Assembly (NCBI GenBank): GCA_021846945.1
Contig: JAJZVZ010000003.1
Span: 1-64,000 of the forward strand
Length of the DNA: 64,000 nt
Direction of reading: 5' to 3'
Source of the DNA: Acidobacteriota bacterium
GTDB taxonomy: Bacteria > Acidobacteriota > Terriglobia > Terriglobales > Acidobacteriaceae
Part shown: positions 7,955-43,821 of the stretch, piece by piece
Layout: each line of letters begins with the position of its first letter
Numbering within the stretch: position 1 is the first letter of the stretch
The notes under the pieces: model-generated
Database searches by the model: none
What the model saw: only the letters and a program-made list of their open reading frames with translations
What the model was told of the DNA's origin: nothing
Program-made: the position numbers and the translations under genes

Positions 7955-8023
7955 AGGCGGCGCGCGGCGTTACGGTTGTTTGGCCCGCTTGAGGGGCATG
8001 CTGGGAGCCGGCATGCGCTGGCT

Positions 8024-9718
8024 CTAACGAGCCCGCCCAGGCAACGACGCTCTCCTGGCCTGCATGCCGGCATCCACCGCCGCTTTCATCACGCCGCAAT
8101 TGGCGAAGAAGTCGACCAGGTCGGCGGAAAGCGGCCGCATCACCGGCGATTCGTATGGCTCGGCCGGCCGGCTCAGCAATTCAGGAAAGCTGACGCTTTG
8201 GGCGGTTTGGATTGCGCCGGAACCTTGCGCGTCGAGGATGAGGGACGTGAGCTTGCGGGCGAGATCAAGCGGGAAGCTCTCCGAGACGAAGACCATTTTG
8301 CCCCGGGTGGTGATGACGACCGGGCCCTCGTTCGTGGAGAAGACCTGCTCCGTGGTTCCATCCGCGGTGGGAGCTGAAGCTTGCGCGGACAGGTCGGGCT
8401 TGAGGCTGGAATATTTGCGGCCCAGGCTGTTGGCGTAAAGCCGGGCGAAGACCTGAGCGGAGGCCGAATTTCTCCAGACCGAAAGGTAAAAAATGGAGAG
8501 GGATTTGGTGCTGTCCTGTTCCGCCGGGGTCCGGGCGCTGCGCAACTGGCCCGCCCAGTAAAGACCGCCGTCCCAGGCTGGAGTCAGGTCGCGCGAGGCA
8601 TCTTCGCCGCCGAACAGCTCGGTCATGATCTTTACATCAAGCTCGCCTAGCTGCCCGATGTCGTAGGGCTTGTAAAGCTTGTCGACAAGCGGATGGATGT
8701 TGGGCAAGAGCGGAATGGGCGGAATCTGCCTTCTTTCGTAGTCGCGCGGGTTCAGGATCTCCCAGCTTGATGTGGGCGGACGGTCGAGCGTGCCGGCAAA
8801 GGCGGCTTCCCGGCCTTTATCCATCCATACGTCCTGCTCGAAGCTGAGGCCCTCCTGGTAGGGGAAGAGCATGGATTCTGAGAGCACGAGGGGAGCCCGG
8901 GCCATCACCGGCGAATTCGCTGAGCTGGTCATGTGATTCTTGATGATGTTCACAACCTCGGGGTCTTTGATCAGGCTTTTTCCGAGAGGCTTGAGGATGT
9001 AATCCATCATGACGGCGGTGGCCTGTCCCTCTGCCACGGCGTCGCGGGCGGTATCGATTTCGTCTTTGGCAAGATGCTCAGTGTCGCCGGCCGCGGTGTG
9101 CGAGACGCTGTCCGGGGTCTGGTTGTCCCACTTTTCGAGGTTGGAGTGCTGGTCCTGGAGGGCATGCGTAAGCTCATGAGCCATGACGGGCTTTTGCTCA
9201 TCGACGCTGACCCAGTCAAGCAGATTGACGGTCTTGGTCTTGGAGTCGTAGTAGGCTTCGATCTGCTCCTTGAGGAGCGCGAGCAGAAATGGCCGCAGCT
9301 CGAAGTCCTTGTCGAGAAGGCCGAATTTTTTCAGGATAATTTCGTCGCGTTGCAGGCGTTTTGTGCCCTGGTCCTCGTTAAATTTCTTTTCCAGGTAGGC
9401 TTCGACGGCGGCGCGGGTGGTCAGGCGGCGCTTGACGGAGCTCTTGATGGGCAGACCGGTTTCGTCCGAGGAGAACTTCAGGAGCGTATCGACGAGCGCG
9501 AAGAGCTGTTTGGCCTGTTCAGGGGTGATGTGGGCGGAGTCATTTCCCGTATCCGGGGTCTTGGCCGGGCTGGTCTGCGATGCGGCCGCGTCCGAATGCC
9601 GCGGCGCCGGAGCTGGCTGCCACGCCCAGGCGATGGTTGCCGCGGCCAGGCAGAGCACCGCCGCCAATGCAAATCCAGTTTTTCCCCGTCTTACCAATGT
9701 CAGCTGCGTGCTCATCAA
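8024..9718 (-). CDS. secreted protein with zinc-metallopeptidase-like HExxH motif
   Basis: Long ORF, signal-like N-term, VMAHELTHALQDQHSNLEKW motif; coding strand preferred over the fragmentary plus-strand ORFs. Confidence 0.7.
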   Translation of the reverse strand: MMSTQLTLVRRGKTGFALAAVLCLAAATIAWAWQPAPAPRHSDAAASQTSPAKTPDTGNDSAHITPEQAKQLFALVDTLLKFSSDETGLPIKSSVKRRLTTRAAVEAYLEKKFNEDQGTKRLQRDEIILKKFGLLDKDFELRPFLLALLKEQIEAYYDSKTKTVNLLDWVSVDEQKPVMAHELTHALQDQHSNLEKWDNQTPDSVSHTAAGDTEHLAKDEIDTARDAVAEGQATAVMMDYILKPLGKSLIKDPEVVNIIKNHMTSSANSPVMARAPLVLSESMLFPYQEGLSFEQDVWMDKGREAAFAGTLDRPPTSSWEILNPRDYERRQIPPIPLLPNIHPLVDKLYKPYDIGQLGELDVKIMTELFGGEDASRDLTPAWDGGLYWAGQLRSARTPAEQDSTKSLSIFYLSVWRNSASAQVFARLYANSLGRKYSSLKPDLSAQASAPTADGTTEQVFSTNEGPVVITTRGKMVFVSESFPLDLARKLTSLILDAQGSGAIQTAQSVSFPELLSRPAEPYESPVMRPLSADLVDFFANCGVMKAAVDAGMQARRASLPGRAR

Positions 9719-36331: not shown

Positions 36332-36378
36332 ATTGGTGGACGCGGTAGGAATCGAACCTACAACCTGTCGGTTAAGAG
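36332..36378. repeat. att site at the int-distal end, 47-bp displaced 3' fragment of tRNA-Lys
   Basis: attggtggacgcggtaggaatcgaacctacaacctgtcggttaagag identical to 43744-43790; tRNA homology stops inside the anticodon loop. Confidence 0.92.
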
Positions 36379-36497
36379 TTGCAGGACCGCCATTTTCTGC
36401 TGATTACTCCGGGTGACTCTGAATTGCTCGGAACCCTGTGTTTATGCGGGTCCCGCGCCCCGCGCCACTACTCCCGATGACTTCGTATTGCTGCCAA

Positions 36498-36522
36498 GGG
36501 TCCCCGGTATTTTCCCCGGTAT
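36498..36522. promoter_or_regulatory. putative arm-type integrase/Xis site (left)
   Basis: gggtccccggtattttccccggtat, two CCCCGGTAT 9-mers spaced by TTT; identical 25-mer at 43676-43700. Confidence 0.6.
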
Positions 36523-36761
36523 AATTCTTCGCGCTTCCGCTGGGGGAAGCAAGCCACTTGTGGGCACGGTGTGAAACCGCTTTGCCCTTTCCGCCCCTCC
36601 CCCACCCTCAAAATTGCAGCGATTGATTCAAGCGCACAACCTCTCACCCAAAAATTTCCCAAAAAATCTGGTTTGGGTAACAGATGTAACCTCGATTTTC
36701 GCTTGGCTGCTCCATGCGAATTGAACACAATATGCAAGATTCGTTGTATGTTATTCGTGTG

Positions 36762-37232
36762 ATGCCGATTGCCTACAACTTGCGTATATCAGATGGCTCG
36801 AAATCGCTTCAGAGGGCGCTGCGCATGGCTGCGGCAAGGCGTGGAATTGCGGTGCGCGACTTCGTGCTTTGGACTTTGTATGCCGAGTTGAACAGAGAAC
36901 TGAGTGACAGTTTCATGGATACCGTTTGGCAGCCAAAGGGGTATGAGGAGTTGCGGGAGCAGCGGAAAGCAACGCGGGAACAGCGCAGCGTGGCCGCGCG
37001 CACGGCTGCGATGGCTCGCTGGCATCCGGAATTGTGTGTTGCGAAGCACCAGTCAAGTGACCAGATGGCCGTGACCGCGCAGCCCGTGTCCGCGCCCCGT
37101 ATTTCTAGGGCGACGGCCAAATCTTGCCCTTCGATTCGCTGCCCTGTGAGTGTAGACCATCCCGCACAACGGCGGGATGACGGCGTGTGGTGCCCAGCTT
37201 GCGAAAAACACTACATTCTTCTTAGCGACTGA
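36762..37232 (+). CDS. hypothetical element protein with C-terminal zinc-ribbon-like Cys pairs
   Basis: MPIAYNLRISDGSKSLQRALRMAAARRGIAVRDFVLWTLYAEL...SIRCPVSVDHPAQRRDDGVWCPACEKHY; weak ribosome site, start uncertain. Confidence 0.45.
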   Translation: MPIAYNLRISDGSKSLQRALRMAAARRGIAVRDFVLWTLYAELNRELSDSFMDTVWQPKGYEELREQRKATREQRSVAARTAAMARWHPELCVAKHQSSDQMAVTAQPVSAPRISRATAKSCPSIRCPVSVDHPAQRRDDGVWCPACEKHYILLSD

Positions 37233-37340
37233 CTGCCGGATCAGCCATGCACCCCCCCTCAAAATTGCTAGTGTAGATTGACCCTCGGAACCCACCGCCC
37301 AAAATCTTTCTAGAATATCAACTATTTTGCAAGCACCGGC

Positions 37341-37670
37341 TTATTGGATATTTGTGTACACGAAATCGCCGATTCGCTGGCTGGTGCCCATGTGAACCGA
37401 CCCATCCGGCGCGGTGATCGTGTGGTATTCGATATTTCCGATCTGCTGGCTGTTTGTGTACCACTGTCCTGAAGGCATAGCGAAATTGCCGTATGTGAAT
37501 TTGCCGATCTGCTGAGTTGTTCCCCACAGATTCCCGGCGGAGGAGGTTCCATTGATAAACCCGAGGTTACCGATCTGCTGGGTCGTCTGCTGTGCCGTAT
37601 AGCCGTTCGATCCCGTAGTCGTGGAAAAAGTGAGGTTGCCGACCTGCTGACTTGTAGTGTCATAGGTGAC
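37341..37670 (-). repeat. five ~22-23 aa QQ[IV]G[NKD]-type protein repeats
   Basis: SQQVGNLTF / TQQIGNLGF / TQQIGKFTY / SQQIGNIEY / SQRIGDFVY in register at the C-terminus. Confidence 0.85.
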
Positions 37671-38810
37671 GGGGCCAGAATACGTGCTCGTGTAGCCGAG
37701 GCTCGAAGAAGATGTTCTGCTCATTTCGGCGTTTGCCGCTTCCCGTTGCAGAGCCTGACCAGAAGACGCAAGACCGATGGCCAGCCCTTCACCAAGGGCA
37801 CGCCAAAACTGATGTCGCCTTTTGATCGGCTTCAAATTGGCGTCATAGACGGTAATCCTCCTGCCCACAATGTGAGCGTAATAGAGTTGTCCGTCACGGC
37901 GTGTCGAATACCAGTTGAGCGGCCTAAAATCGGCATCAAAATACTCAGTGATCCCATCGTTGTAGTCTTTCAGCCAAACGATTTTTCCCGCCTGCGTTGT
38001 CGAGCTGTGAATATTCAGGTACTTGAAGTTCTTGTCATAAAGCTCGACCTCTTGCCCCGTTGTATAGGCGTAGTAGGTCTCCCCGGAGGATTCGAAAGTG
38101 CTCCAGTTGGTAGGCTCTCCAAAACGATCATAGATGTCAGAGTAACCGTCTTCCGGCTTCTCAAAGTAACCGTTCGTTCCGTCACAATACCAACGGAACA
38201 GGACTTTGTTCGTCTTAACGTCGATGTATTCGGAACCATCCTGATGATCCTCAATTCGAGTCGTGGGATTGCCGTCTTTGTCGAGAAGTAGCCGAATGCC
38301 GACGTACTTGAAATCCTTGTTGTAAATGTAGACCGTCGAGCGGTCGCGAATGACGTTATAGTGATTCCCGTTCCTGTTGAAACTCATGAAGTCGAGCACA
38401 TCTGCCAAGTTCAGAACTTCCGGCGTTTTGTCTTCATGAAACTGGAATGTTCCCTTTTCAGGGAGGGCCTTGAAATGGGGATAATTCACCGAATAGTTGC
38501 CGAAATAGCTGTCCCCACTGATGACCCCTTGAAACTTAATGTCGCCCGAGGGTCCTTCGCTTTCGACGGTCATAGTCGATTTGTCTTTGTCAAATGCGGA
38601 GATGTCGCAAGGACCGGAGCCAAGGAGGGGAGCACCGATTCGTAGCGTGCATTCCTTGTGACTGAAGCTGATCGTGGCGGTCCCCTGGATTGAATGTCTC
38701 GGATTTGTGGTGTTGATGACCGTACCACTAAGAGACCATGGGGCATTTTGGGCGGTGGACGGCGAGACGGACATGACGACCACGATGCAAATCAGCAATT
38801 CACGCATCAC
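37341..38810 (-). CDS. secreted cargo protein with internal tandem-like blocks and five C-terminal QQIGN repeats
   Basis: Signal peptide MMRELLICIVVVMSVSPSTAQ; blocks VYIYNKDFKYVGIR / VELYDKNFKYLNIH / ITVYDANLKPIKR; C-terminal repeats. Confidence 0.8.
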   Translation of the reverse strand: MMRELLICIVVVMSVSPSTAQNAPWSLSGTVINTTNPRHSIQGTATISFSHKECTLRIGAPLLGSGPCDISAFDKDKSTMTVESEGPSGDIKFQGVISGDSYFGNYSVNYPHFKALPEKGTFQFHEDKTPEVLNLADVLDFMSFNRNGNHYNVIRDRSTVYIYNKDFKYVGIRLLLDKDGNPTTRIEDHQDGSEYIDVKTNKVLFRWYCDGTNGYFEKPEDGYSDIYDRFGEPTNWSTFESSGETYYAYTTGQEVELYDKNFKYLNIHSSTTQAGKIVWLKDYNDGITEYFDADFRPLNWYSTRRDGQLYYAHIVGRRITVYDANLKPIKRRHQFWRALGEGLAIGLASSGQALQREAANAEMSRTSSSSLGYTSTYSGPVTYDTTSQQVGNLTFSTTTGSNGYTAQQTTQQIGNLGFINGTSSAGNLWGTTQQIGKFTYGNFAMPSGQWYTNSQQIGNIEYHTITAPDGSVHMGTSQRIGDFVYTNIQ

Positions 38811-38950
38811 ATTTACCTTTAACTGGGAAACATCTTAGCTCAGGATTAAGCTCATGACGAACCATTTTCCCCGTCGGCGACGCCTCTCGCATCCTCGCAG
38901 AACGAAAGTCTGAGTCAGGACTTCGGATTGTGCTACGATTCGAGCAATAG

Positions 38951-38978
38951 AAAAGCCGGGGTGCCAGCCCCGGCCATT
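38951..38978 (-). terminator. putative rho-independent terminator on the minus strand
   Basis: On the minus strand: gccgggg-ctggca-ccccggc followed by ttttctatt. Confidence 0.5.
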
Positions 38979-39148
38979 CGTGAATTTTGCTTGCGGGCAA
39001 TCTTATTGTGCTTGAGGTTTGCCCAAAATGCAATCGCTTTGCTTGGCATCCGAAGACGATTCCCAACTTCTTGAGTTTGTGAAGAATCAGCTTCCCTCGA
39101 TAAGAGCGGGGCAGGTGTACTGCGAACTGGCCGGCGATGGTACTGCCG

Positions 39149-39367
39149 TCATAGCCTCAGTTCGTGCGGATTTGGCCCAGGACGCTGGTGTAAATCTGCG
39201 CCTCCGTATTCATTCTCTTGACCGCACTTCGGACATTTGCCCGGAATAGAAATTGGCTCTTCAAATGGAACAATGTGTCCCGGGCGCACTCCACCTGCAA
39301 ATTGAAGAAAGATCCATTCTCCGCAGCTTCGACACTGCGCTGCCCACCATATGTGAATGATCTTCAT
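39149..39367 (-). CDS. small zinc-ribbon protein (72 aa)
   Basis: MKIIHIWWAAQCRSCGEWIFLQFAGGVRPGHIVPFEEPISIPGKCPKCGQENEYGGA with two CxxC pairs; ribosome site unclear. Confidence 0.45.
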   Translation of the reverse strand: MKIIHIWWAAQCRSCGEWIFLQFAGGVRPGHIVPFEEPISIPGKCPKCGQENEYGGADLHQRPGPNPHELRL

Positions 39368-39461
39368 AATGCCGAGAATTATACGTTCTTTACTTACAGA
39401 AGGCTTCCTACGATCTTCGATGGCCCAGCGGGGCCTCAATTTTGAAATAAACGAAACGCCG

Positions 39462-41411
39462 TCACTGGAGCAGACCGCCACACGCGCTATCGAACGGCGA
39501 CGCATCAGCATTGAGATTGCTGCGATCCAGGATCATTTGTTCCTCATTCTCCCGAACCAGCTTTCCCCCGCCATTGGCGCGGGTTTCAGGGCTATTTTGC
39601 GTTTCTGGTTCTCTGGTTCGTTGTATATCCTGCGAACCAGAAAACCACTTTTCATAAAGGTATGGTTTACCCCGCGTGCCTTCCCCGGTTCGCTTCACCC
39701 TTTCAGAGCGAGTTAGAGACGTGAGTGCTGCCCGAATGGTCTTTGTCGTCCCTTCCACTTCATCGCGGATTTGTTTCTGAGCCTGAGGCTTCCCAGCGGT
39801 TTGCAGATAGGTGAGAATTCGGCTCTCAGCATCGCTCTGATCCCTTTCCGCCTTGCTGCCATCGAGGGACAGTTTGCGCGTTACGGGATCGAAGGCGAGC
39901 ACGGTTTCAGAGAGATCGGTGCAGATGCGCTGGACAGTCTGGAGGGTCCGGTAAGTTTCGGTACGCTTGAGCAGCAGCAAGGTAGAAACGATGCCACCCA
40001 GGGCCGTGCTCCCAAGAGGCGAGTCGATAGCATCAGCTTTCAGGCTCTTTCCGGCATGGTGCGTCAGCAGGATATGAGTGCCCGTTTCGCGGGCAATGTC
40101 AATCAACGGCCCTAATGCCTGATAGGTCTCCGCATAGGCTTTCTCGTCACGGATGCGCGCCAACCGGAAGAGGGGATCAATCACCACCAGCGCCGGTGTG
40201 CGTTCCCGTACCAGTCGCACCAGAGCGGGCATCGCATCTTCAGGTGCATGAGCGGCATGTATGCGGATCGGCTCTTCGCCGGATGCGCCCAATGCGCGAA
40301 AATCGGCTTTCACGTCCTCGGCTCTTTCTTCCAAGGCAAGGTAGATAACTTCGCCTTGTCGAGTTTTGCGACCGAGGAAATCTCTGCCCGTGCTCACAGC
40401 GAGGGCCAAATTCCGCGCGAAGGTGCTCTTGCCCACCTTTGGTTTTGCCACAACAGCCGCGACTGTCCCCGCAATCAGCAGCCCTTCCACCAGGTAATCC
40501 ACGGGAGCATCGGGGCGGGCCATCAACTCTCCCAGGTGAATCAGCTCATAACCGCCCGGATTCCCACTTTGTGATGCTTCCATCCTGTCGCACTCCGTTA
40601 TCCCTTTCGGGTTCGGATACCTCGCCGGAATGTCGCGTGCGATGGCGCGCACCTTCGCATCGGGCAACGGCGGAGAAAATACGCCGTTCTCCACCAGCAA
40701 TGCCGCTTCGATGGCAGCCGGAGTCATTCCTCGTTTGTGCATGGAACCGGCAAGGGAAACTAGATGCTTTGTACGACCACCTTTGCCGATTGGCTGGTTC
40801 ACCAACGCGCCCACTACTGACGTGCTTTGTGGCGTCTGTGCGCCTTGCGGCTCTTGGATGAGGGATAGGAGCCATCCAGGACACAGCACGGGCGGAATGG
40901 CCGATTCGTTGATTTCATACCGTGCGCCGCTCGCATGGACCGAAGGTGGGGCCACAACGTAGCCGCCGTTTCCGCGAATGTCCAGCCCTGGAGCTATCCG
41001 GCTCTGCGAATTGCGAACGTCCGCACCTTTCGGCCAAAGGAAATAGAGGTGCTGTCCTCCGCCGCCCGTTCGGACGGTGTAGCTATCGGGTAGCGGGCCA
41101 TAACGCCTCTCAAGTTCGATGAGGGATTGCTCGCCTTGCTTGCCGTCAACATCCAAGACAAGGATGCCGCTCTCCGCCCCGGTCACGATGCCGATATTTG
41201 CATCCGGCCAGCGGGTCCACCATTCGCGGATCGTGGCCGGATCACGGCTCGCGTCTTTCAGGCCGTGGGCAGTCCGGGGATGCTTGCCGGGACTCTCACA
41301 GTCTGCCCGCCCGCAAGAGCAACCGTGCGCCGCTGGGGAATGGAGTGGGATCACAAGCCAGCCCCGCGCCGCGTACCCCAGTGCCGTCACAAGATCGGAC
41401 GGGGTCATCAT
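39462..41411 (-). CDS. bifunctional primase/polymerase (AEP Prim-Pol) fused to RepA-like AAA ATPase
   Basis: GYAARGWLVIPLHSP, GKHPRTAHGLKDASRDPATIREWWTRWPDANIGIVTG, LVLDVDG, TGGGGQHLYF; Walker A KPKVGKSTFARNLALAVSTG, Walker B-like ALVVIDPLFRL, ILLTHHAGKS; C-terminal wHTH-like region. Confidence 0.9.
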   Translation of the reverse strand: MMTPSDLVTALGYAARGWLVIPLHSPAAHGCSCGRADCESPGKHPRTAHGLKDASRDPATIREWWTRWPDANIGIVTGAESGILVLDVDGKQGEQSLIELERRYGPLPDSYTVRTGGGGQHLYFLWPKGADVRNSQSRIAPGLDIRGNGGYVVAPPSVHASGARYEINESAIPPVLCPGWLLSLIQEPQGAQTPQSTSVVGALVNQPIGKGGRTKHLVSLAGSMHKRGMTPAAIEAALLVENGVFSPPLPDAKVRAIARDIPARYPNPKGITECDRMEASQSGNPGGYELIHLGELMARPDAPVDYLVEGLLIAGTVAAVVAKPKVGKSTFARNLALAVSTGRDFLGRKTRQGEVIYLALEERAEDVKADFRALGASGEEPIRIHAAHAPEDAMPALVRLVRERTPALVVIDPLFRLARIRDEKAYAETYQALGPLIDIARETGTHILLTHHAGKSLKADAIDSPLGSTALGGIVSTLLLLKRTETYRTLQTVQRICTDLSETVLAFDPVTRKLSLDGSKAERDQSDAESRILTYLQTAGKPQAQKQIRDEVEGTTKTIRAALTSLTRSERVKRTGEGTRGKPYLYEKWFSGSQDIQRTREPETQNSPETRANGGGKLVRENEEQMILDRSNLNADASPFDSACGGLLQ

Positions 41412-41611
41412 TGCAGGTCCAGCGCGGGCATCGTTCCGCGATCAATGATCTTCTGGATGGTCTCATCCGAGATTCTGACCGCGCGGCCTACTTTGACGTA
41501 TTCAATGCTCCGGCGGTAAATCCATGATCGAAGACACTTGACGCTGATTCCGAGCCGCGCGGCAGCCTGGGGCAGTGAATTCAGTTTCGACTCTTGCAGC
41601 GATGCGGGCAT
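41408..41611 (-). CDS. excisionase-like HTH DNA-binding protein
   Basis: LNSLPQAAARLGISVKCLRSWIYRRSIEYVKVGRAVRISDETIQKII; start 41611 preceded by GGAGG; ATGA overlap with the Prim-Pol gene. Confidence 0.85.
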   Translation of the reverse strand: MPASLQESKLNSLPQAAARLGISVKCLRSWIYRRSIEYVKVGRAVRISDETIQKIIDRGTMPALDLQ

Positions 41612-41674
41612 TTGATCCTCCAGAATACGGTTTGCTCTACTTTCCAAATAAATGCTACGAAATATCGGGAGCGC

Positions 41675-42511
41675 ATGTCGATATTATTTGATTGCCTTTT
41701 GTTGCCGATACGTGCTATCTATATTTTGGTGAAGCGCGATGCCCAATTGCCGCTAGAGATTTACGGAATACACGGCGTGGCTCCCTTTGAGCAAAGCCGG
41801 GCTGTCCTCGAAACGGTCTGCAACGCGCTAAATTCCGATTCGCGCGCAGAGTTGAAAAATCACCTCCGTGCGCTTGTGAGAAGGTGGCTCGATTCGGGTC
41901 CGAACTTGGAACAGATGCTTCAGGACGCGAGCATCCTTGTGGCGACGAACCAAGACAGCGTAGAGCTACTTTCGCGTTCAACCTTGCCCCAGAATGAGCG
42001 TAAAGTGCTCACGTTTGGGATGCGTGCGGTTTGGACTCCCACTTCCGGGGCACAGGCCCGGCTTGTCCTCATGTCCGATTACGAAATGCTGGAGACTTTG
42101 CTAGGGGAACCTGTGCGCCAGAAAGGGCCGAACGGAAAAGAGACAGTTATGCCCAAGGCAGAGGCGCTGATGCTCTTTTACCTGTTGACCGTCACTCCGG
42201 GCTGCGAAAAGATCGCCGGTCCCTGTCCGCGTTGTGATCGCTACTACATCAAGAAGCGAGCATCGCAAAAAGTCTATTGCTCCCGCCGGTGTGGAAATGC
42301 TGCTACGGCGGTAGCGCGAACCCATGAGCGAATCGCCAGTGAGCGCAGAGACAAGCTCGCGCGCGCCAAGGCTGCAATGAAGAAATGGAAGCCCACGGCT
42401 ACCCAGCAGGACTGGAAACACTGGGTTGCCATGAAAACAGGGATTGACCCGCGCTTTTTGACCCGCGCTGTCACTAAGGGCGACTTGGTGCCGCCGCGAA
42501 AGAAGAGGTGA
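41675..42511 (+). CDS. protein with C-terminal CGNR/DUF6076-like zinc finger
   Basis: CPRCDRYYIKKRASQKVYCSRRCGNAATAVARTHER; GGAG ribosome site before MSILFD; ends 3 bp before int. Confidence 0.75.
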   Translation: MSILFDCLLLPIRAIYILVKRDAQLPLEIYGIHGVAPFEQSRAVLETVCNALNSDSRAELKNHLRALVRRWLDSGPNLEQMLQDASILVATNQDSVELLSRSTLPQNERKVLTFGMRAVWTPTSGAQARLVLMSDYEMLETLLGEPVRQKGPNGKETVMPKAEALMLFYLLTVTPGCEKIAGPCPRCDRYYIKKRASQKVYCSRRCGNAATAVARTHERIASERRDKLARAKAAMKKWKPTATQQDWKHWVAMKTGIDPRFLTRAVTKGDLVPPRKKR

Positions 42512-42514
42512 ACT

Positions 42515-43735
42515 ATGTCAGTGTTTCGCTACAAGGGCAGCAAGGTTTGGACGATGGATTTTCTCTTCCACGGCCAGCGCATCAGGGAAAGCACAGGGAC
42601 GCGCTCCAAGACGCTTGCTCTGAAGATTGAGGATAAGCGTCGCCGGGCATTGGAAGAGGGCGCAGCGGGCATCAGGAAGCGGCAGCAGCCCCTTCTGCTT
42701 TCGGTTGCGGCAGATGATTGGCTGAAATTGAAGAAAGCCACGCTTGCGCCGCGCTCTGTGAAGATCGAACAGGCTAACCTTGCACATCTGCTCCCGGAGT
42801 TGGGCCGTAAGCTGATTTGCGATATTGAAGCGGCGGACGTTGCCCGCTATCAGCAAAAGCGGATTGACGAAAAGGCTTCACCCAAGACGGTCAATCTGGA
42901 AGTGGGGACGCTGCGGGCGATTCTGAAACGCTCCGGCCAGTGGGCGCGGTTGCAGCCGGAAGTGAGTATGCTTCCCACGCGGGATGATGTGGGCCGGGCC
43001 ATCACAGCGGACGAGGAAACGGCGCTGCTACAGGCTTGCAGTCAATCCCGCTCCCGCTCTCTGGTTCCATTCGTCACCCTGGCGATTGAGACGGGGGCGC
43101 GGTACGGAACCATTCGGACGCTCGAATGGGGCAACGTGGATTTTGAAAACCGCTGCTTGAAGTGGGGCAAAGACAAGACGGCAGCCGGTACGGGGCGAAT
43201 AGTGCCGCTCAGTCAAAGGGCCGTTGCTGCTCTCAGCTTTTGGGCGACACACTTCCCGAATCGCAAGCCGGAACATTACGTGTTCCCTTCAGAGCGGTAC
43301 GGCGCGGGCGGGGACGAATTCAGCCCCAAGGCTTACCACGTTGACACGTCCAAGCCCATCGGGAGCATCAAGGAAGCATGGGAAGCGGCCAGACTGCGGG
43401 CAGCGCGGATTCTGAAAGGCGAGACGGAAGAGACGGAAGAGAACACCGAGACGGAACCCAAAGAACCGATTGCGCCCCTTGCTTGCCGCTTCCACGATCT
43501 GCGGCACACGGCGGTTTCCCGGATGCTCAACAACGGTGTACCGATTGCCAAGGTTGCGAAGATCGTAGGATGGAGCAAGTCTACGATGGTGCTCATGGCA
43601 GCGCGGTACGGTCACTTCTCTTTGAACGATCTGCGAGACGCTGTCGAAGGCATCAGCGGGAGCAAAATTGAAGCGGGGTCCCCGGTATTTTCCCCGGTAT
43701 CGGAGCAAAGCCCGGAAGCGAAGCGGCCTAACTGA
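42515..43735 (+). CDS. int: tyrosine-type site-specific integrase
   Basis: ETGARYGTIRTLEWGNVDF, HDLRHTAVSRMLNNGVPIAKVAKIVGWSKSTMVLMAARYGHFS catalytic boxes; next to the tRNA att site. Confidence 0.93.
   Translation: MSVFRYKGSKVWTMDFLFHGQRIRESTGTRSKTLALKIEDKRRRALEEGAAGIRKRQQPLLLSVAADDWLKLKKATLAPRSVKIEQANLAHLLPELGRKLICDIEAADVARYQQKRIDEKASPKTVNLEVGTLRAILKRSGQWARLQPEVSMLPTRDDVGRAITADEETALLQACSQSRSRSLVPFVTLAIETGARYGTIRTLEWGNVDFENRCLKWGKDKTAAGTGRIVPLSQRAVAALSFWATHFPNRKPEHYVFPSERYGAGGDEFSPKAYHVDTSKPIGSIKEAWEAARLRAARILKGETEETEENTETEPKEPIAPLACRFHDLRHTAVSRMLNNGVPIAKVAKIVGWSKSTMVLMAARYGHFSLNDLRDAVEGISGSKIEAGSPVFSPVSEQSPEAKRPN
43676..43700. promoter_or_regulatory. putative arm-type integrase/Xis site (right), within int 3' end
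   Basis: gggtccccggtattttccccggtat identical and in the same orientation as 36498-36522. Confidence 0.6.
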
Positions 43736-43743
43736 TTGAGTCG

Positions 43744-43790
43744 ATTGGTGGACGCGGTAGGAATCGAACCTACAACCTGTCGGTTAAGAG
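43744..43790. repeat. att site at the int-proximal end, 47-bp repeat inside the intact tRNA-Lys
   Basis: Identical to 36332-36378. Confidence 0.92.
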
Positions 43791-43821
43791 CCGAATGCTC
43801 TGCCAGTTGAGCTACGCGTCC
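43746..43821 (-). tRNA. tRNA-Lys (CTT), CCA end encoded
   Basis: Minus strand GGACGCGTAGCTCAACTGGCAGAGCATTCGGCTCTTAACCGACAGGTTGTAGGTTCGATTCCTACCGCGTCCACCA folds as a cloverleaf; 7-nt loop CTCTTAA gives anticodon CTT; 27-43 pair is U/C. Confidence 0.93.

Follow-up and report, generated by a model that had tools for sequence, protein, structure and literature searches.

We begin with the question that this locus raises: how does a 7.46-kb segment with its own integrase, excisionase-like and replication genes, and with no recognisable gene for a virion or for conjugation, come to move? The segment lies in a 64,000-nucleotide stretch of DNA (the window) from an Acidobacteriota bacterium of the family Acidobacteriaceae (assembly GCA_021846945.1, contig JAJZVZ010000003.1, positions 1 to 64,000), where it is integrated at a tRNA-Lys gene. 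The explanation that we favour, with moderate confidence, is that this is a minimal integrative hitchhiker, most probably a satellite of phages that works like the phage-inducible chromosomal minimalist islands (PICMIs) of Vibrionaceae. We propose more tentatively, and with some doubt, that it belongs to an undescribed family of minimalist satellites in the Acidobacteriaceae. Such a family would have a conserved integration cassette (Int, an int-adjacent zinc-finger protein, arm sites varying along with the integrase group, and tRNA targets), swapped replicases and cargo, and integrases and att sites in common with full-size acidobacterial phages, its possible helpers.

Boundaries and gene plan

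The first question is where the element begins and ends, and what it encodes. Its features, in window positions, are as follows.

36332..36378: distal att core, the left copy of the 47-bp direct repeat and the displaced chromosomal 3' part of tRNA-Lys (from the repeat and in silico joining)
36498..36522, plus strand: putative distal arm-type site, TCCCCGGTAT TT TCCCCGGTAT in tandem, about 120 bp inward of the left core
36714..37232, plus strand: P0001, 172 aa, no family, N-terminal part ribbon-helix-helix-like by eye
37341..38810, minus strand: P0002, 489 aa, cargo, with a signal-peptide-like N-terminus and C-terminal QQIGN repeats
39149..39511, minus strand: P0007, possible small zinc-ribbon open reading frame (ORF), start uncertain, sub-threshold zinc-ribbon matches only
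39462..41411, minus strand: replication protein, 649 aa, Prim-Pol, PriCT_1 and RepA-like hexameric helicase ATPase (AAA_25)
41408..41611, minus strand: HTH_17 protein of excisionase-like type, starting with ATG at 41611
41612..41728: intergenic region that separates the two divergent operons
41729..42511, plus strand: P0005, zinc-finger protein (C2C2-type), probable GTG start at 41729
42515..43735, plus strand: P0006, tyrosine integrase, 406 aa
43676..43700, plus strand: putative proximal arm-type site, matching the distal one at 25 of 25 positions, 43 bp inward of the right core
43744..43790: proximal att core, the right copy of the 47-bp repeat, within the intact tRNA-Lys gene (from the repeat and the tRNA call)
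43746..43821, minus strand: intact tRNA-Lys(CTT), the integration target

The element measures 7,459 bp counting both cores, and the distance from repeat start to repeat start, 7,412 bp, gives the size of the predicted circle. The right 47-nt core covers the 3' 45 nt of tRNA-Lys(CTT), and an exact repeat of this length that ends inside a tRNA excludes chance. Joining the left flank, the core and the right flank in silico yields a base-identical tRNA-Lys, while the same in silico check finds no tRNA in the predicted circle junction, which reads ...GATTGAGTCG-core-TTGCAGGACC..., or in the present left end of the element. A tRNA rebuilt from its flanks together with a tRNA-free junction is the signature of insertion by a tRNA-targeting integrase. 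The repeat search and the tRNA reconstitution therefore confirm what a preliminary description, made from the letters of this DNA, had claimed: exact 47-bp repeats bounding a 7.46-kb element at tRNA-Lys. The GC content is 0.555 in the element versus 0.595 and 0.608 in its flanks.

The int and zinc-finger genes are divergent from the HTH_17 and Prim-Pol/RepA genes, and the intergenic region between them (41612..41728) is the probable switch region. The integrase matches PF00589 at 5.7e-22 and the PHROG integrase at 1.2e-53, with the catalytic R-K-HxxR-H/W-Y residues conserved. The zinc-finger gene ends 3 nt upstream of int. Its product is named by no library model, has no credible match in Foldseek and PDB-sequence searches, and gives no match as a query against the genome contigs; its C-terminal CxxC...C...C zinc knuckle and helices are kept in the int-adjacent genes of relatives. 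On the other side, the excisionase-like protein matches HTH_17 (PF12728) at 1.5e-8, above the cut-off, and 'excise' at 8.3e-9, and its gene overlaps the start of the replication gene. Profile searches divide the replication protein into Prim-Pol (1.5e-52), PriCT_1 and AAA_25 (2.7e-32), and its ATPase part matches the solved RepA 1g8y by sequence at 2e-9. A promoter and terminator scan of the element scored no better than shuffles, and a search for an iteron-like origin found none.

The gene content first listed for the segment (integrase, excisionase-like helix-turn-helix protein, Prim-Pol/RepA-like ATPase, zinc finger and cargo) is thus upheld by profile searches, with the zinc finger and the cargo unnamed by the libraries. 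The absences hold as well. Pfam, PHROG, NCBIfam and PADLOC recognise no virion, packaging, relaxase, type IV secretion or defence gene in the ORFs of the element, and these sensitive profile searches find among them no terminase, large terminase included, no capsid or portal, and no FtsK-like transfer gene.

Paired inner repeats and relatives in the family

Inside the two cores lies a second pair of repeats, a 25-nt exact direct repeat absent from the preliminary description, whose proximal copy is embedded in the 3' end of int, in frame, and encodes GSPVFSPV. The next question is whether such pairs exist in other elements with a similar integrase. In 12 of the 14 related bounded elements they exceed all 60 shuffles, the exceptions being L071 and L081 (L and G numbers are our handles for loci and genomes). 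In most cases the left copy lies 150-190 nt and the right copy 111-118 nt from the respective end of the element, with outliers in L156 (138, left) and L157 (141, right). The sequence varies by integrase group (TCCCCGGTA, TCCCCAAAG, CCCCCACA, GTCACC..., ACCCGC..., ACCCTCA), while the two copies of any one related element agree and their positions are kept from element to element. Because the repeats are paired, fixed in position and matched to the integrase, we infer that they are the arm-type sites of a lambda-type integrase. Integrases 76-93% identical to that of the window are found at tRNA-Asn, -Val or -Lys (L154, L277, L069 and L071 versus L150 and L153), so the choice of core site changes faster than the arm sites.

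How widely is the element distributed? The 17 named loci that have a close integrase all come from Acidobacteria, mostly labelled Acidobacteriaceae, and include Granulicella metagenome-assembled genomes and the isolate Acidobacteriaceae bacterium KBS 89. Within the genus (80 genomes searched, our own included) the integrase occurs at 81-93% identity in eight other genomes, the copy in G236 being split across two frames. It adjoins the tRNA in six of 20 sampled tRNA-Lys loci, and a seventh keeps only a fragment of the int 3' end. The repeat-bounded relatives range from 5.1 to 14.9 kb and use tRNA-Asn, -Val, -Pro, -Glu and -Lys, with integrase identities of 86% at tRNA-Lys (G269), 87% at tRNA-Asn (L277) and 80% at tRNA-Val (L069).

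The layout of Int and zinc finger on one side and Xis and replicase on the other recurs exactly in L088 (tRNA-Glu, 45-bp direct repeat), and again in L079 and L156, where the integrase and the replicase are recognised and the small genes are placed by position. The replicases themselves are swapped: Prim-Pol/RepA-like in the window, L156 and L079, the same ATPase joined to a primase whose N-terminal part differs in L088, DUF3987 proteins in L071 and L082 (PF13148 found in both) and in L273, and a D5/DUF5906-type protein in L069. The cargo of the relatives includes MmeI-like restriction-modification, C5 methylase, GmrSD, NotI and zeta-toxin families. Restriction or methylation genes, which are common in satellites, are present in several related elements and favour the satellite reading.

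A second element of this kind resides in the same genome.

G000 contig 31, 2847-9600: L273, 6.75 kb, bounded by 46-bp repeats at tRNA-Ala(CGC)

In L273, a 233-aa zinc-finger-like gene overlaps int by 23 nt, and an HTH protein is divergent from them. The element has its own arm-site pair, ACGACACAAA, and its replicase shares 59% identity with the DUF3987 protein of L082 and 54% with that of L071. It also encodes an 88-aa homologue of P0001, and for this reason P0001 is probably element-associated and not random cargo.

The preliminary description had named two findings that would count against it, namely that no homologous element exists anywhere, or that sensitive searches reveal structural or conjugation genes. 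Neither has appeared, since many Acidobacteriaceae genomes carry homologous elements, the order of int, zinc-finger, xis and replication genes being found in L088, L079, L156 and L273, and the structural and conjugation genes are absent.

Phage, plasmid or remnant

We turn our attention to the vehicle. The 12-kb element L069 (integrase 80% identical) encodes a small terminase, terS (PF03592, 2.5e-29), at 8020-8901, while no large terminase or capsid is recognised in it. Integrases closely related to those of the family are also encoded on phage contigs. One of these contigs, L182 (IMG/VR 3300050821_021080), has a tape-measure match and sits at tRNA-Pro(GGG), and its Int is 78% identical to that of L078 and L160, two compact elements located at this tRNA-Pro as well; these may be a phage/satellite pair sharing an att site. 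In the genome of our element, contig 39 carries at about 71-95 kb (L271, L272) a large terminase (phrog_2, 7.7e-24) with neighbours that are portal-, capsid- and tail-like when read by eye. This cluster is possibly a resident prophage or a domesticated phage cluster, and thus a candidate helper. Among 111 element proteins one matches PHROG 'head morphogenesis'.

Alternatively, the element could be an integrative mobilizable element or integrated plasmid, with a core similar to that of pSAM2 and the actinomycete integrative and conjugative elements (AICEs) and no tra genes. Int, Xis and Prim-Pol would then provide excision and replication, and transfer would come from a conjugative helper acting on an unrecognised origin of transfer (oriT), or from natural transformation. 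Int, Xis and Prim-Pol are indeed also the core of actinobacterial integrative plasmids, and P0003 matches 228 plasmid records, mostly from Streptomyces; both count for this reading. So does the fact that streptococcal satellites can move by competence too (PMC13376191). However, no relaxase or coupling protein is recognised in the window element or in the related elements. Together with the terS of L069 and the integrase relatives located in phage contigs, this leads us to favour phage over conjugative transfer and to regard the plasmid as rather unlikely, though a contender.

The phage contigs with related integrases also suggest a different history, in which the element is the immobile remnant of a full temperate prophage whose late genes have gone. 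A decayed derivative is in fact known in another genome, at L112 (10508-10869, G254), where in a decayed attR the 3' end of int is joined to part of xis, and one arm site and a tRNA fragment are retained. In the window, however, the core ORFs are all intact, the att cores exact and the arm sites 25/25 identical, and the compact layout with exact repeats is seen in many genomes, twice in this one. Since independent decay would not yield a recurring compact layout, we reject the remnant, which we consider improbable.

The variable cargo brings to mind a further possibility, a tycheposon-like island vehicle that integrates into tRNA genes, mainly moves cargo and spreads by vesicles or capsids. 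The resemblance lies in the tRNA target, the tyrosine integrase with a replicase, and the variable cargo including a secreted-type protein. The present element is much smaller, though, with a cargo of only one to three genes, and we think this origin very improbable, slightly more so than a remnant.

Returning to the phage satellite, several observations weigh against it. The window element has no terS, capsid-remodelling or recognised packaging gene, terS is recognised in only one of about 15 relatives, and the terS of L069 has weak partial matches only elsewhere in 250 family genomes. The element and the terminase cluster of contig 39 have no DNA similarity, and the Prim-Pol/RepA module is common to plasmids and phages. 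P0002 looks secreted, which is atypical of satellite cargo. Finally, of the empty-site comparison that the preliminary description had called for, only part succeeded: unoccupied tRNA-Lys genes with one flank in common exist, but a strict empty site, in which both flanks would be conserved, did not turn up. The uroD-like right flank is kept at tRNA-Lys in four congeners while the CutC/DeoR left flank is located elsewhere there, which is why only one-flank sites were recovered.

Known satellites and the proposed cycle

Does the element belong to a known class? The PICMIs are the closest in plan. PICMI115 is 6.1 kb with six genes, and its packaging by a phage has been proven; the int-overlapping gene is needed for excision, AlpA alone suffices to trigger it, a primase replicates the island, and a virulent helper packages it as a concatemer without capsid remodelling (PMC10803314). 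Our element is likewise a 6-7 kb unit with direct repeats, few accessory genes and no capsid-remodelling genes, having a tyrosine integrase (PF00589) with a contiguous or overlapping gene (the iolg/icg slot, assigned by position) on one side and an AlpA/HTH_17 regulator-excisionase with a primase on the other. Unlike a PICMI, it is located in tRNA-Lys and not next to fis, its replicase is Prim-Pol/PriCT_1/AAA_25 and not DUF3987 (PF13148) or DUF5906 (PF19263), its int-adjacent gene encodes a zinc-finger protein, and its host is of a different phylum; the sister element L273 does have a DUF3987-type protein, as in PICMI. Because of the site and the primase family, the element should not be filed as a PICMI, though by analogy it appears to work like one.

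Other classes fit in part. As in the phage-inducible chromosomal islands and Staphylococcus aureus pathogenicity islands, an operon of int plus regulator (a putative role of the zinc-finger protein) is divergent from xis and pri/rep, structural genes and a large terminase are absent, and a relative (L069) has terS; the element is half their usual size, and neither terS nor an stl-like repressor nor a gene for capsid morphogenesis is recognised in it. The tRNA-targeting integrase with its own primase-helicase recalls the P4-like satellites, but the psu, delta, sid, alpha and alpA families are absent from the PHROG and Pfam matches of the window ORFs, no P4-specific search having been made. With pSAM2 and the AICEs it has in common Int, Xis, a Prim-Pol replication protein and the tRNA site; it differs in having no recognised FtsK-like transfer gene, in the divergence of int from xis-rep and in the host phylum.

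Since the same functional slots stand in the same arrangement as in PICMI, we propose phage-triggered Xis expression, excision, replication and helper packaging. The boundaries, tRNA reconstitution, gene families, conserved layout, paired arm sites and scatter among relatives are observed here; from them we infer regulation, excision, replication activity and packaging. Int would bind the two arm sites, which lie inward of the core by about 120 bp and 43 bp, and the attP core, the same as the 3' part of tRNA-Lys, would recombine with the chromosomal gene, restoring the tRNA. While the element is resident, int and its zinc-finger neighbour would be expressed and the divergent xis-primpol operon silent, until a signal from outside, probably the infection by or induction of a phage, switches on the HTH/Xis protein. 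This protein and Int, probably with the zinc-finger protein, would excise the 7,412-bp circle, which Prim-Pol/RepA would prime and unwind for replication. The element itself has genes neither for a virion nor for conjugation, so the circle or a concatemer would most likely be packaged into helper phage capsids. The satellite reading first put forward for this DNA therefore gains the PICMI-like layout, the terS of one relative and the integrase relatives in phage contigs, with excision, helper and packaging as its conjectural parts.

Minimal satellites show how few functions suffice for parasitising a phage, and to our knowledge they have been proven only in a few culturable groups, e.g., Vibrionaceae and streptococci. 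The PICMI gene plan in a dominant soil phylum, with another int-adjacent protein, other replicases and tRNA targets, suggests either convergence on a design for minimal hitchhiking or its deep spread. The literature searched gave us no account of phage satellites in Acidobacteria; a 2018 survey went no further than noting that acidobacterial prophages without a virion might be satellites (PMC5900883). With exact boundaries, and some carriers in cultured genera, excision and packaging are directly testable.

Some minor features complete the picture. P0001, P0002 and the small zinc-ribbon ORF, which overlaps the 3' end of the replication gene, are recognised by no family in profile searches. The C-terminus of P0002 contains about four to five copies of the 22-aa QQIGN repeat (66-69 nt each, 37341-37580). 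This protein is nearly private to the genome, with no strong relative in 200 family genomes, and its single-sequence structure prediction (pLDDT 39) is unusable. As for the tRNA-Lys site, a different and longer integrase is found there in G270 (L101, 3719-5020), adjoining the same uroD-like flank, so tRNA-Lys is a shared integration hotspot. In G177 a truncated tRNA-Lys copy stands 69 kb from the intact gene (G177:C3:601408-670866, L108-L111), which suggests a much larger element at that site.

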